A program made the position numbers and the translations under genes. The notes beneath the pieces were generated by a model that saw only the letters and a program-made list of their open reading frames with translations, made no database searches and was not told the DNA's origin. This document shows, in pieces, positions 7,626-51,416 of a stretch of 64,000 nt of DNA. How positions within the stretch are numbered: position 1 is the stretch's first letter; every line of letters begins with the position of its first letter. The DNA is taken from contig JAUTCQ010000015.1 in assembly GCA_030673845.1 (NCBI GenBank), forward strand, positions 124,001-188,000. Direction: 5' to 3'. Origin of the DNA: Verrucomicrobiota bacterium JB022. GTDB taxonomy: Bacteria > Verrucomicrobiota > Verrucomicrobiia > Opitutales > Oceanipulchritudinaceae.

Positions 7626-7656
7626 GAACAGGAGTTAAAAGGAGTTAAAAAGAGTG
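7626..7656 (+). repeat. left arm of perfect 31-bp inverted repeat
   Basis: Identical to the reverse complement of 8050-8080. It contains the stop codon of the GxxExxY gene (TTA at 7645-7647 on the plus strand). Confidence 0.9.
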
Positions 7657-8052
7657 CTGCTTTTCGTTCAGGTAGAGACGGTGGATTCCGTTTTTGAGCG
7701 AGACTTCGTGAAAATTCAGCAGAAGGCCTACCTCTAGGTTTAATAGCTTCATATAGCTCATGATTTGTGCTTTATGAATTGGTATGATGGCTTCGACAGC
7801 TTTTAGTTCTACGATGATTGCATTATTCACAATCAAGTCGCACTTCAGAGTGTGTTCCAAGACCAAGTCCCGATAACGAACTTTTACCAGCTTCTGTCGT
7901 TCGCATTTAAAACCTTGAGTGGTCAATTCGTAGGCGAGACATTGCTCGTAAAGAGATTCGAGCAGCCCAGGCCCCAGCGCGGTGTGAACGCTATAAGCTG
8001 CTTTCAGAATCGCAGCGCTAAGTTCCTGATGGGATGCTTGTTTCGCAATCAC
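7645..8052 (-). CDS. GxxExxY protein (PD-(D/E)XK nuclease-like)
   Basis: The product is 135 residues from a GTG at 8052, with GGAG 9 bases upstream inside the flanking repeat. It matches the GxxExxY family: the eponymous motif reads GLLESLY, and a following CDLIVNN...IVELKAV segment supplies the D...ExK pattern of PD-(D/E)XK nucleases. Family members are common in Verrucomicrobiota, Planctomycetota and related phyla, often in several copies per genome; their biological role is not established. The gene sits in the gyrB-gyrA transcription unit, in the same direction, and is bounded exactly by a 31-bp inverted repeat. Lower GC than its neighbours supports acquisition by transfer. Confidence 0.9.
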   Translation of the reverse strand: MIAKQASHQELSAAILKAAYSVHTALGPGLLESLYEQCLAYELTTQGFKCERQKLVKVRYRDLVLEHTLKCDLIVNNAIIVELKAVEAIIPIHKAQIMSYMKLLNLEVGLLLNFHEVSLKNGIHRLYLNEKQHSF

Positions 8053-8080
8053 TCTTTTTAACTCCTTTTAACTCCTGTTC
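8050..8080 (-). repeat. right arm of perfect 31-bp inverted repeat
   Basis: Reverse complement of 7626-7656. Read on the minus strand it supplies the ribosome-binding GGAG and the GTG start codon of the GxxExxY gene. Confidence 0.9.
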
Positions 8081-49871: not shown

Positions 49872-49946
49872 AGGCCGATGGTGTAATTGGCAACACAGCG
49901 GGTTTTGGTCCCGTTATTCAAGGTTCGAGTCCTTGTCGGCCTGCCA
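49872..49946 (+). tRNA. tRNA-Gln (anticodon UUG), CCA encoded
   Basis: The sequence folds into a full cloverleaf: acceptor AGGCCGA with TCGGCCT, D stem GTGT/ACAC, anticodon stem GCGGG/CCCGT with loop TTTTGGT giving anticodon UUG, and T arm AAGG-TTCGAGT-CCTT. The discriminator is G and CCA is encoded. It reads CAA codons. A promoter precedes it and a terminator follows. Confidence 0.96.
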
Positions 49947-49951
49947 CTTTC

Positions 49952-49993
49952 AAAAAAGCCGCGTTTCTCTTTCGCAGAAAACGCGGCTTTTTT
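49952..49993 (+). terminator. Rho-independent terminator of tRNA-Gln
   Basis: A long stem, AAAAAAGCCGCGTTT with AAACGCGGCTTTTTT, starts 6 bases after the CCA end and finishes in six T. Confidence 0.9.
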
Positions 49994-50087
49994 GTGCACT
50001 GGAAGGTGCCTTTTTTGTTTCATCAGAAAAGGCAGACAAGACGGAAAAGGGAAGTAGCCCGGTGTCTTGAGCGGGTGCGGCTGAAGA

Positions 50088-50239
50088 GGATTTAACCACA
50101 GAAGGCACAGAAGACACAAAATCTTCAGCGAATGTCTGCTGCCTGATTCTCTTCTTTATTCGAATTGAAGCAGAATCGATTTCAGGACCACTGCCGATCC
50201 TGCATTTTTGTGTCTTCTGTGCCTTCTGTGGTTAAATCC
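50088..50239. repeat. 152-bp element with perfect 34-bp inverted terminal repeats
   Basis: The arms at 50088-50121 and 50206-50239 are perfect inverted repeats; each begins GGATTTAACCACAGAAGGCA. The 84-bp interior has no ORF and shows further complementarity (CTGATTCT near 50135 with AGAATC near 50172), so the whole unit could fold into one long hairpin. It lies between tRNA-Gln and the TPR lipoprotein gene. It looks like a non-coding relative of the GxxExxY unit at 7626-8080. Confidence 0.85.
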
Positions 50240-50268: not shown

Positions 50269-51195
50269 CTATTCCTGCCCCTGTTTCTCCCGGGCTTCGG
50301 CATCGTCGATGGCTTCCAGTAGAGCCTTCTTGTTGGCAGCGAGGCCTTCCTGCACGACGAGTTGGAGCACGTCGCGGGCATCCTGGTAGCGGTGCAGCTC
50401 ACCTAACACGCGGGCGGTGTGGAGCCGGACGGCGTCGGACTGGATCAGCGAGAGGTCGTTGCGGCTCTGCAGCTTGCGCCAGTGCGCGAAGGCTTGCTCC
50501 CAGTCAGGCTCCGGCAGGTCGTAAAACGCTTCGCCGTAGCGGAACTGCAGCTCCAGAAGCTCCGGGGCCAGCTCGGCAGCGCGTTGGTAAGAGCGGAACA
50601 TGTCCTGGTCGAGCTGGTCGGGCTGGAGGATGCCCGCTTCGAGCAGCCCCGGGCGGTAGGTGTAGAGCAGCTCGCCGAGCGCGTAAAAGTAGAGGGCCTC
50701 GTTGGGCGCCAGCTCGGTCGCACGCAGGTAATAGGCGAGGGCTTCGCCGAAGTTGCCCTCCTCGGCGTGGAAGGTGCCCATGTACTGGTTGACCACCGCG
50801 AGGTTGGGGTTGAGGCGGAGGGCGTAGGCAAACTGGGTCTGCGCGCCCTCGCGGTCGCCGAAGAAATCGAGCAGCTTGCCGTAGAGCACGCGCGCTTCGA
50901 CCTTGTCGGGGTTGTCGCTGATAATGCTGTCGAACTCGCGGCCCACCTCGTGGAAGCGGCGGGCGACGTTGCCCTGGTCGATCTGGTCGTCCGGGCGTTG
51001 GGCGTATTCCAGCAGCGACTGGTAGTTGGCCGCGACGCGCGCCATGCGCTGGTCGTAGAGGCTGTATTCGGGCTCCTGCCGTGTCTGGGCGGCGGGGGCG
51101 GCGGAGTCGGCCTGCGCGTTGGACGAGCTGCAGCCGGCAAAGCTGCCGAGGCCAGCCAGCGCGAGGAAAAGAGTCGTGGGGCGGATCAAGCGCAT
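50269..51195 (-). CDS. TPR-containing lipoprotein
   Basis: From the ATG at 51195 the product is 308 residues. The signal peptide ends with lipobox FAGC, so it is lipid-anchored. Tandem TPR-like helices cover about residues 70-290; clear repeats are GKLLDFFGDREGAQTQFAYALRLNP and MGTFHAEEGNFGEALAYYLRATELAP. TPR lipoproteins scaffold envelope complexes; no partner is evident. The start chosen is the only one that gives a signal peptide. It is 5 bp after the zinc-ribbon gene on the same strand. Confidence 0.85.
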   Translation of the reverse strand: MRLIRPTTLFLALAGLGSFAGCSSSNAQADSAAPAAQTRQEPEYSLYDQRMARVAANYQSLLEYAQRPDDQIDQGNVARRFHEVGREFDSIISDNPDKVEARVLYGKLLDFFGDREGAQTQFAYALRLNPNLAVVNQYMGTFHAEEGNFGEALAYYLRATELAPNEALYFYALGELLYTYRPGLLEAGILQPDQLDQDMFRSYQRAAELAPELLELQFRYGEAFYDLPEPDWEQAFAHWRKLQSRNDLSLIQSDAVRLHTARVLGELHRYQDARDVLQLVVQEGLAANKKALLEAIDDAEAREKQGQE

Positions 51196-51200
51196 GCCTT

Positions 51201-51416
51201 CTAGTTGAGCCCGCACATGCCGGGCATGTTGCCGCAGGCGCAGGGCGGCATGGCCGGAGCCGAAGCGCCGCTGCCCATGGAAGGGGCAAAGGTCGACCAC
51301 TTTTTCGCCAGCTCGGCACTGCCGCAAGACGGGCAGCTTGGCTGACTCTGGGAGCCCTGCACCAGCGCTTCAAACGCGTGGTCGCAGGATTGGCAGGTAT
51401 ATTCGTAGAGGGGCAT
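51201..51416 (-). CDS. FmdB family zinc-ribbon protein
   Basis: A 71-residue protein that starts MPLYEYTCQSCDHAFEAL, the hallmark of the FmdB/CxxC putative regulatory family. Two knuckles, CQSC and CPSC, bind zinc. A Gly/Pro/Cys-rich tail (CACGNMPGMC) follows. The role is unknown; a regulatory function has been proposed for the family. It is followed after 5 bp by the TPR lipoprotein gene. Confidence 0.9.
   Translation of the reverse strand: MPLYEYTCQSCDHAFEALVQGSQSQPSCPSCGSAELAKKWSTFAPSMGSGASAPAMPPCACGNMPGMCGLN

Follow-up and report, generated by a model that had tools for sequence, protein, structure and literature searches.

Next to the tRNA-Gln gene of Verrucomicrobiota bacterium JB022 lies a short stretch of DNA without a gene, whose two ends are perfect inverted copies of each other. 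The locus raises the question of whether this unit is a local RNA gene, the remnant of an element that once carried a gene, or a member of a dispersed hairpin family that is served by an enzyme encoded elsewhere. We have analysed the unit in its window, the whole stretch of 64 kb of DNA under study, and compared it with its relatives in the same genome and in other genomes.

Structure of the unit and its locus

The unit at 50088-50239 and its neighbours are arranged as follows.

49872 to 49946, forward strand: tRNA-Gln (TTG), upstream of the unit and conserved in the same-genus genome G001
49951 to 49994, forward strand: terminator-like hairpin of tRNA-Gln, conserved in G001 and distinct from the unit
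50088 to 50121, forward strand: left arm of 34 nt, consisting of GGATTTAAC and then three heptamers (CACAGAA at 50097-50103, CACAGAA at 50106-50112, CACAAAA at 50115-50121) with the spacers GG and GA
50122 to 50205, no strand: interior of 84 nt, geneless
50206 to 50239, reverse strand: right arm of 34 nt, perfect inverted copy of the left arm with the same heptamers and spacers
50269 to 51327, reverse strand: tetratricopeptide-type (TPR) gene, convergent with tRNA-Gln, start codon uncertain

The preliminary description of this DNA reported a non-coding unit with perfect 34-bp inverted ends adjoining tRNA-Gln, and both points are borne out. The arms are complementary at 34 of 34 positions with 84 nt between them, no gene lies within the 152 bp, and the open reading frames touching the unit all extend beyond it. 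From base composition, such perfect inverted repeats are expected about 4e-13 times per 64 kb; those of at least 18 bp in the window are the ends of this unit and those of a GxxExxY unit at 7626-8080, and there are no others. Within each arm the heptamers stand in tandem with a period of 9 (CACAGAA GG CACAGAA GA CACAAAA), a design that is shared with the arms of GxxExxY elements. The unit is located 3' of tRNA-Gln and of the terminator-like hairpin belonging to that tRNA, and the stop codon of the TPR gene is 30 bp away.

When folded as RNA, the 152-bp unit reached -79.2 kcal/mol (z -12.5 against shuffles), and when folded as DNA it gave a z of -12.2. The interior had also been thought to fold on itself, but the 84 nt alone gave a z of only -1.26, and 27 of 200 shuffles folded equally well. 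A transcribed structured RNA, which had been proposed as well, found no backing: an Rfam scan over the unit returned no family at the gathering score (the best overlap, a plant miRNA model, was far below the cut-off), the interior folds like shuffled sequence, and the corresponding locus of the same genus is empty. In a check for a stem followed by a T run, the unit was not called terminator-like.

In G001, the sole same-genus genome compared, the pyrH-side flank, tRNA-Gln, the terminator and the TPR gene are collinear with the window (identities of 81%, 92% and 72%), and the unit is absent. Considering that it is missing from the same tRNA-Gln neighbourhood, the unit is not a conserved local RNA gene; the empty locus and the lack of an Rfam match above the gathering score together rule out that candidate. 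A hairpin kept at this locus with compensatory changes in relatives, as a local RNA gene would show, was sought and not found. The absence fits either a gain here or a loss in G001. A comparison of this region in relatives for empty sites had been suggested, and it succeeded in part: G001 provides the tRNA-Gln locus without the unit, but the junction is not base-exact. Neither a base-exact insertion nor a target-site duplication was found, and the intergenic DNA of G001 at the empty site is too diverged. Other same-genus pairs compared for empty sites are 66-77% identical, and in a genome set that we take to be Akkermansia-like the flanks searched for a base-exact empty site were not syntenic. 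Among the relatives scanned, a tRNA beside the TPR gene was found in none besides G001.

Sister hairpins and GxxExxY genes with inverted arms

A genome-wide pattern search recovered 15 arms, which make up the window unit and another seven pairs measuring about 96-180 bp from core to core. The genome contains at least eight dispersed geneless hairpins of this arm type, including the window unit. Their arms agree at 18 to 31 of 31 positions, with 18 to 30 in the copies other than the window unit, and they have these arms in common while their interiors resemble neither one another nor GxxExxY genes. Such unrelated interiors within one genome are unexpected, because a recent burst of copy-and-paste would give shared ones. 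The units with Pfam-typed neighbours are intergenic, and 17-104 bp separate them from the stop codons of neighbours such as leuA-, pilB- and cysS-like genes. The interior of the window unit shows no similarity to the other units or to the GxxExxY genes of the genus, and no GxxExxY gene or remnant was found in it; geneless members of the family are common. The perfect arms of the window unit are compatible with youth and with hairpin-mediated homogenisation alike. Arm concordance within units was considered as proof of correction and rejected, since likeness within units did not differ significantly from that between units (p 0.07). Elsewhere in this genome, a GxxExxY gene has a geneless hairpin of 177 bp, with arms of the CACAAAG type, immediately upstream of it (L003 1256-1432, C1).

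The GxxExxY element of the window is composed of the following parts.

7626 to 7656, forward strand: left arm, tandem GGAGTTAAAA, same architecture as in the unit with another sequence
7645 to 8049, reverse strand: GxxExxY gene (PD-(D/E)XK_3), coding part of the related element
8050 to 8080, reverse strand: right arm, perfect 31-nt inverted copy

The preliminary description saw the same design in the unit and in this element. This likeness is well supported, yet the arms of the element differ from those of the unit and its protein belongs to another clade. Six genes of the genome match the GxxExxY family TIGR04256, and each is flanked by inverted arms of short tandem repeats whose sequence differs from gene to gene. 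In a sample of the phylum, flanking inverted arms scored above all 100 shuffles at 59 of 68 GxxExxY loci, as against 0 of 26 TPR genes taken as controls. Inverted arms were present at 35 of 40 loci in a second set, and both sets, which contain near-copies (L218/L286, L200/L205), together gave 94 of 108. The repeat periods that passed the shuffle test at the GxxExxY loci of the phylum were mostly 8, 9 or 10.

The arm type of the window unit is itself associated with these genes. At the level of the order, GxxExxY was present in 10 of the 11 genomes with CACARAR arms and in 17 of the 44 without such arms (Fisher p 0.002). CACARAR arms directly adjoin six GxxExxY genes, and in some genomes the gene lies directly inside such arms. 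One genome (G014, 84% complete) has the arm pair and no GxxExxY match. In another, a cluster of arms (AACCACAGATAGCACAGAAA..., G019:C73:118566-120206), often about 112 bp apart, flanks a GxxExxY gene on both sides.

Across 91 loci, the arm sequence tracks the clade of the protein (Mantel r 0.32, 0 of 2000 permutations). In the two sets taken separately, with pairs more than 70% identical excluded, protein identity and 4-mer similarity of the arms correlated with Mantel r of 0.349 and 0.356 (0 of 2000 permutations each). On the protein tree of the 91 loci, 22 changes suffice for the six arm classes, whereas shuffling gave a mean of 55.6 (0 of 200 as low), and the clades of this tree mix host families. 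Accordingly, arms and gene form one unit across large divergence. A protein that recognises its own arms would be the natural reading of this co-variation; arms and gene that simply move together, with no recognition involved, would produce it as well. One clade with full support (L004, L458, L466, L467, L468, L292, L293 and L460) has arms of the CCAC(A/G)(A/G)AA type. The arms of the window unit match this clade, and among all GxxExxY arms tested they are nearest to those of L458, which belongs to G001. The L458 gene lies between two geneless hairpins of about 100 bp, which have almost the arms of the window unit, are 87% alike and stand in direct orientation. L004, from the genome and the contig of the window, belongs to the L458 clade, has variant arms and is 75% identical to L458. 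The membership of the window unit in the GxxExxY arm family is well supported.

The GxxExxY protein is assigned to PF13366, PD-(D/E)XK_3, by Pfam with the exact sequences, and a sequence search found no relative of solved structure. In an AlphaFold model based on four sequences (pLDDT 79), the predicted fold is nuclease-like, and the archaeal Holliday-junction resolvases Hjc were among the best matches (Foldseek E 0.013). The comparison with Hjc resolvases gave a VIA Z of 6.8, tied with restriction enzymes. The modelled fold is thus weakly suggestive of an enzyme that may act on extruded palindromes.

Related units in other genomes

In G101, one complete GxxExxY unit is accompanied by two copies with internal deletions of 210 and 261 bp, which share the ends of the element and whose deletions show microhomology of 1-3 bp. 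A GxxExxY element of the same genome lies amid a larger inverted repeat that recurs in the genome (GACGCGGAATTT..., L266 1637-2341). In the fcl-gmd spacer of Bacteroides ovatus and B. finegoldii (L446, L452), an orthologous 74-bp CACAGAG hairpin has been inverted in place, with 70 of 74 positions identical when flipped against 58 of 74 when direct, and with flanks identical at 56 of 60 and 57 of 60 positions (95%). Arms could be homogenised by a hairpin-linked inversion of this kind. In Pseudoalteromonas, one and the same spacer ranges from empty to holding a single unit or several, showing both an empty locus and a change in copy number.

Exact matches to the arm occur in Alcanivorax, Planctomycetes, Chloroflexi, Acidobacteria, Chlamydiae, Desulfobacterota and Methanosarcinales, where the paired units are mostly 63-190 bp and geneless. 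A paired unit of Pyrinomonadaceae encloses a GxxExxY gene, and on a Bacteroidales contig a GxxExxY gene lies between two short hairpins. In other phyla, the two arms of the short units differ in their 2-nt spacers, although this test is biased by the search pattern, and strict hairpin pairing is therefore not a conserved feature.

On viral contigs of a related group (L330-L443), mostly single CACAGAG arms occupy the narrow gap from a stop codon to the following start codon. Paired units numbered only 12 there, the orientation of the arm differs at one shared site, and a search for base-exact empty sites gave one near-case, a single arm against a pair. The mostly single viral arms are unexplained by a model of paired hairpins. 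CACAGAG arms and GxxExxY are also present on plasmids, whereas the plasmid search gave no match to the window unit itself and a search of E. coli gave none. The plasmid and Bacteroidales matches of GxxExxY rest in part on an L128 query that is 83% identical to the real L128 protein.

Possible mobilisation of the unit and alternative explanations

We consider it probable that the unit is a REPIN-like, non-autonomous hairpin for which a GxxExxY nuclease, rather than a Y1 transposase, acts in trans. The family would consist of dispersed hairpins with an inverted array of short repeats at either end, in this case CACARAA with a period of 9 nt, in which the gene-bearing members carry a PD-(D/E)XK nuclease of the GxxExxY type and the window unit would be a geneless member. 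The nuclease clade that matches the arm type may recognise the heptamer array in both arms, probably on the palindrome extruded as a hairpin or cruciform, and may cut or resolve the extruded structure. Subsequently, the hairpin, with a gene inside it, a gene beside it or none, could be copied, inverted or spread between genes in trans. From the arms and the protein clades we infer this recognition, cutting and mobilisation by the nuclease.

This proposal has a close counterpart in the REPIN, an inverted doublet that forms a hairpin between genes and whose partner is a Y1 transposase (PMC3116915). On the one hand, the two systems are alike in their short inverted doublets, in hairpins that are dispersed between genes and non-autonomous, and in a partner gene beside copies of the same hairpin, as for L458 in G001. 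On the other hand, the partner here is a PD-(D/E)XK protein instead of a Y1 HUH transposase, the arms contain heptamers every 8-10 nt where those of REPINs are palindromic REPs, and they vary with the protein clade and occur in many phyla and in archaea. MITEs of DDE transposons are likewise short geneless units with terminal inverted repeats, but the interiors here are not common to the copies, no target duplication was seen at the diverged empty site of G001, and the partner gene is no DDE transposase. The TAACTGA repeats of Beggiatoaceae and Cyanobacteria are also intergenic heptamer arrays with a patchy distribution that suggests horizontal transfer; they differ in that the arrays are direct, precede start codons and hardly ever form inverted pairs, and in having no recognised partner gene (PMC4679880).

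The most serious alternative is that the unit derives by internal deletion from one GxxExxY element, which lost its gene, kept its arms and some interior, and became immobile. The preliminary description raised this as well. The process does occur elsewhere, as two of the three copies of one GxxExxY unit in G101 are internally deleted, and in some genomes the gene lies directly inside CACARAR arms. The window copy, however, keeps no trace of a gene, its interior resembles neither the GxxExxY genes of the genus nor the other units, and the geneless hairpins of G001 lie beside the gene rather than around it, so that the geneless state may be the basic form. We regard an origin by deletion as unlikely for this copy, though deserving of weight.

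The intervening sequences (IVS) of 23S rRNA follow the same plan, with a 28-bp terminal stem and an optional small ORF, and have been called a selfish element (PMC4990558). Like the units described here, they have terminal inverted repeats forming a long stem and are horizontally scattered (PMC4990558). An element of this kind would spread by an unknown route and be tolerated since RNase III cuts it from transcripts. In the phylum, genes of the four-helix 23S-IVP family (PF05635/TIGR02436; L226-L255) that lie outside rRNA likewise have inverted arms of short tandem repeats on either side, at 20 of 27 loci, but with a period of 7 or 14 rather than 9-10. The classic site of the IVS is 23S rRNA, whereas the window unit neither lies in 23S rRNA nor carries an IVP (PF05635) gene, and at the threshold used the genome gave no TIGR02436 match. 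We consider this explanation improbable for the window unit.

A local structured RNA or 3'-end element, such as a terminator or mRNA stabiliser, would be kept for the hairpin in its transcript. The hairpin is indeed very stable and the units of this genome lie close to stop codons, but the empty locus in G001, the separate conserved terminator of tRNA-Gln, the shuffle-like interior, the Rfam and terminator results, and the spacers of the short units, which show no co-variation, make this explanation highly improbable. It is hardly credible that the unit is a REPIN moved by the Y1 (RAYT/IS200-like) transposases of the genome: such genes are present and the inverted doublet in an intergenic hairpin looks like a REPIN (PMC3116915), but the arms are tandem heptamers, of the two best Y1 genes, one is accompanied by inverted repeats of another kind and neither has a CACARAR arm nearby; therefore the unit was not filed as a REPIN, an assignment that is largely refuted for these two genes.

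Beyond this locus, we tentatively suggest, with some doubt, that GxxExxY nucleases and their arms may constitute a class of minimal mobile elements that spans bacteria and archaea and has gone unrecognised. Each clade would read a heptamer of its own that recurs every 8-10 nt in two inverted arms, the geneless hairpins would be non-autonomous members, and the 23S-IVP four-helix proteins would represent a parallel system of 7 nt. GxxExxY is a very common annotated family that is unstudied and without a known role, and our search of the open literature found no paper linking it or these repeats to an element. A DNA repeat matched to the clade provides a testable substrate for the family, and the arm-to-protein code of the 91 loci would make recognition testable by arm swapping. 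The link also offers a possible origin for the interspersed repeats of the CACAGAG type in many phyla and archaea, and suggests a new type of partner for miniature hairpin elements. Units of different arm types can also be nested, as seen at one locus of G054 (L323 1549-2173), where CACAGAG arms are outermost, CGCAAAG arms lie inside them and a CACGGAT arm is found within.
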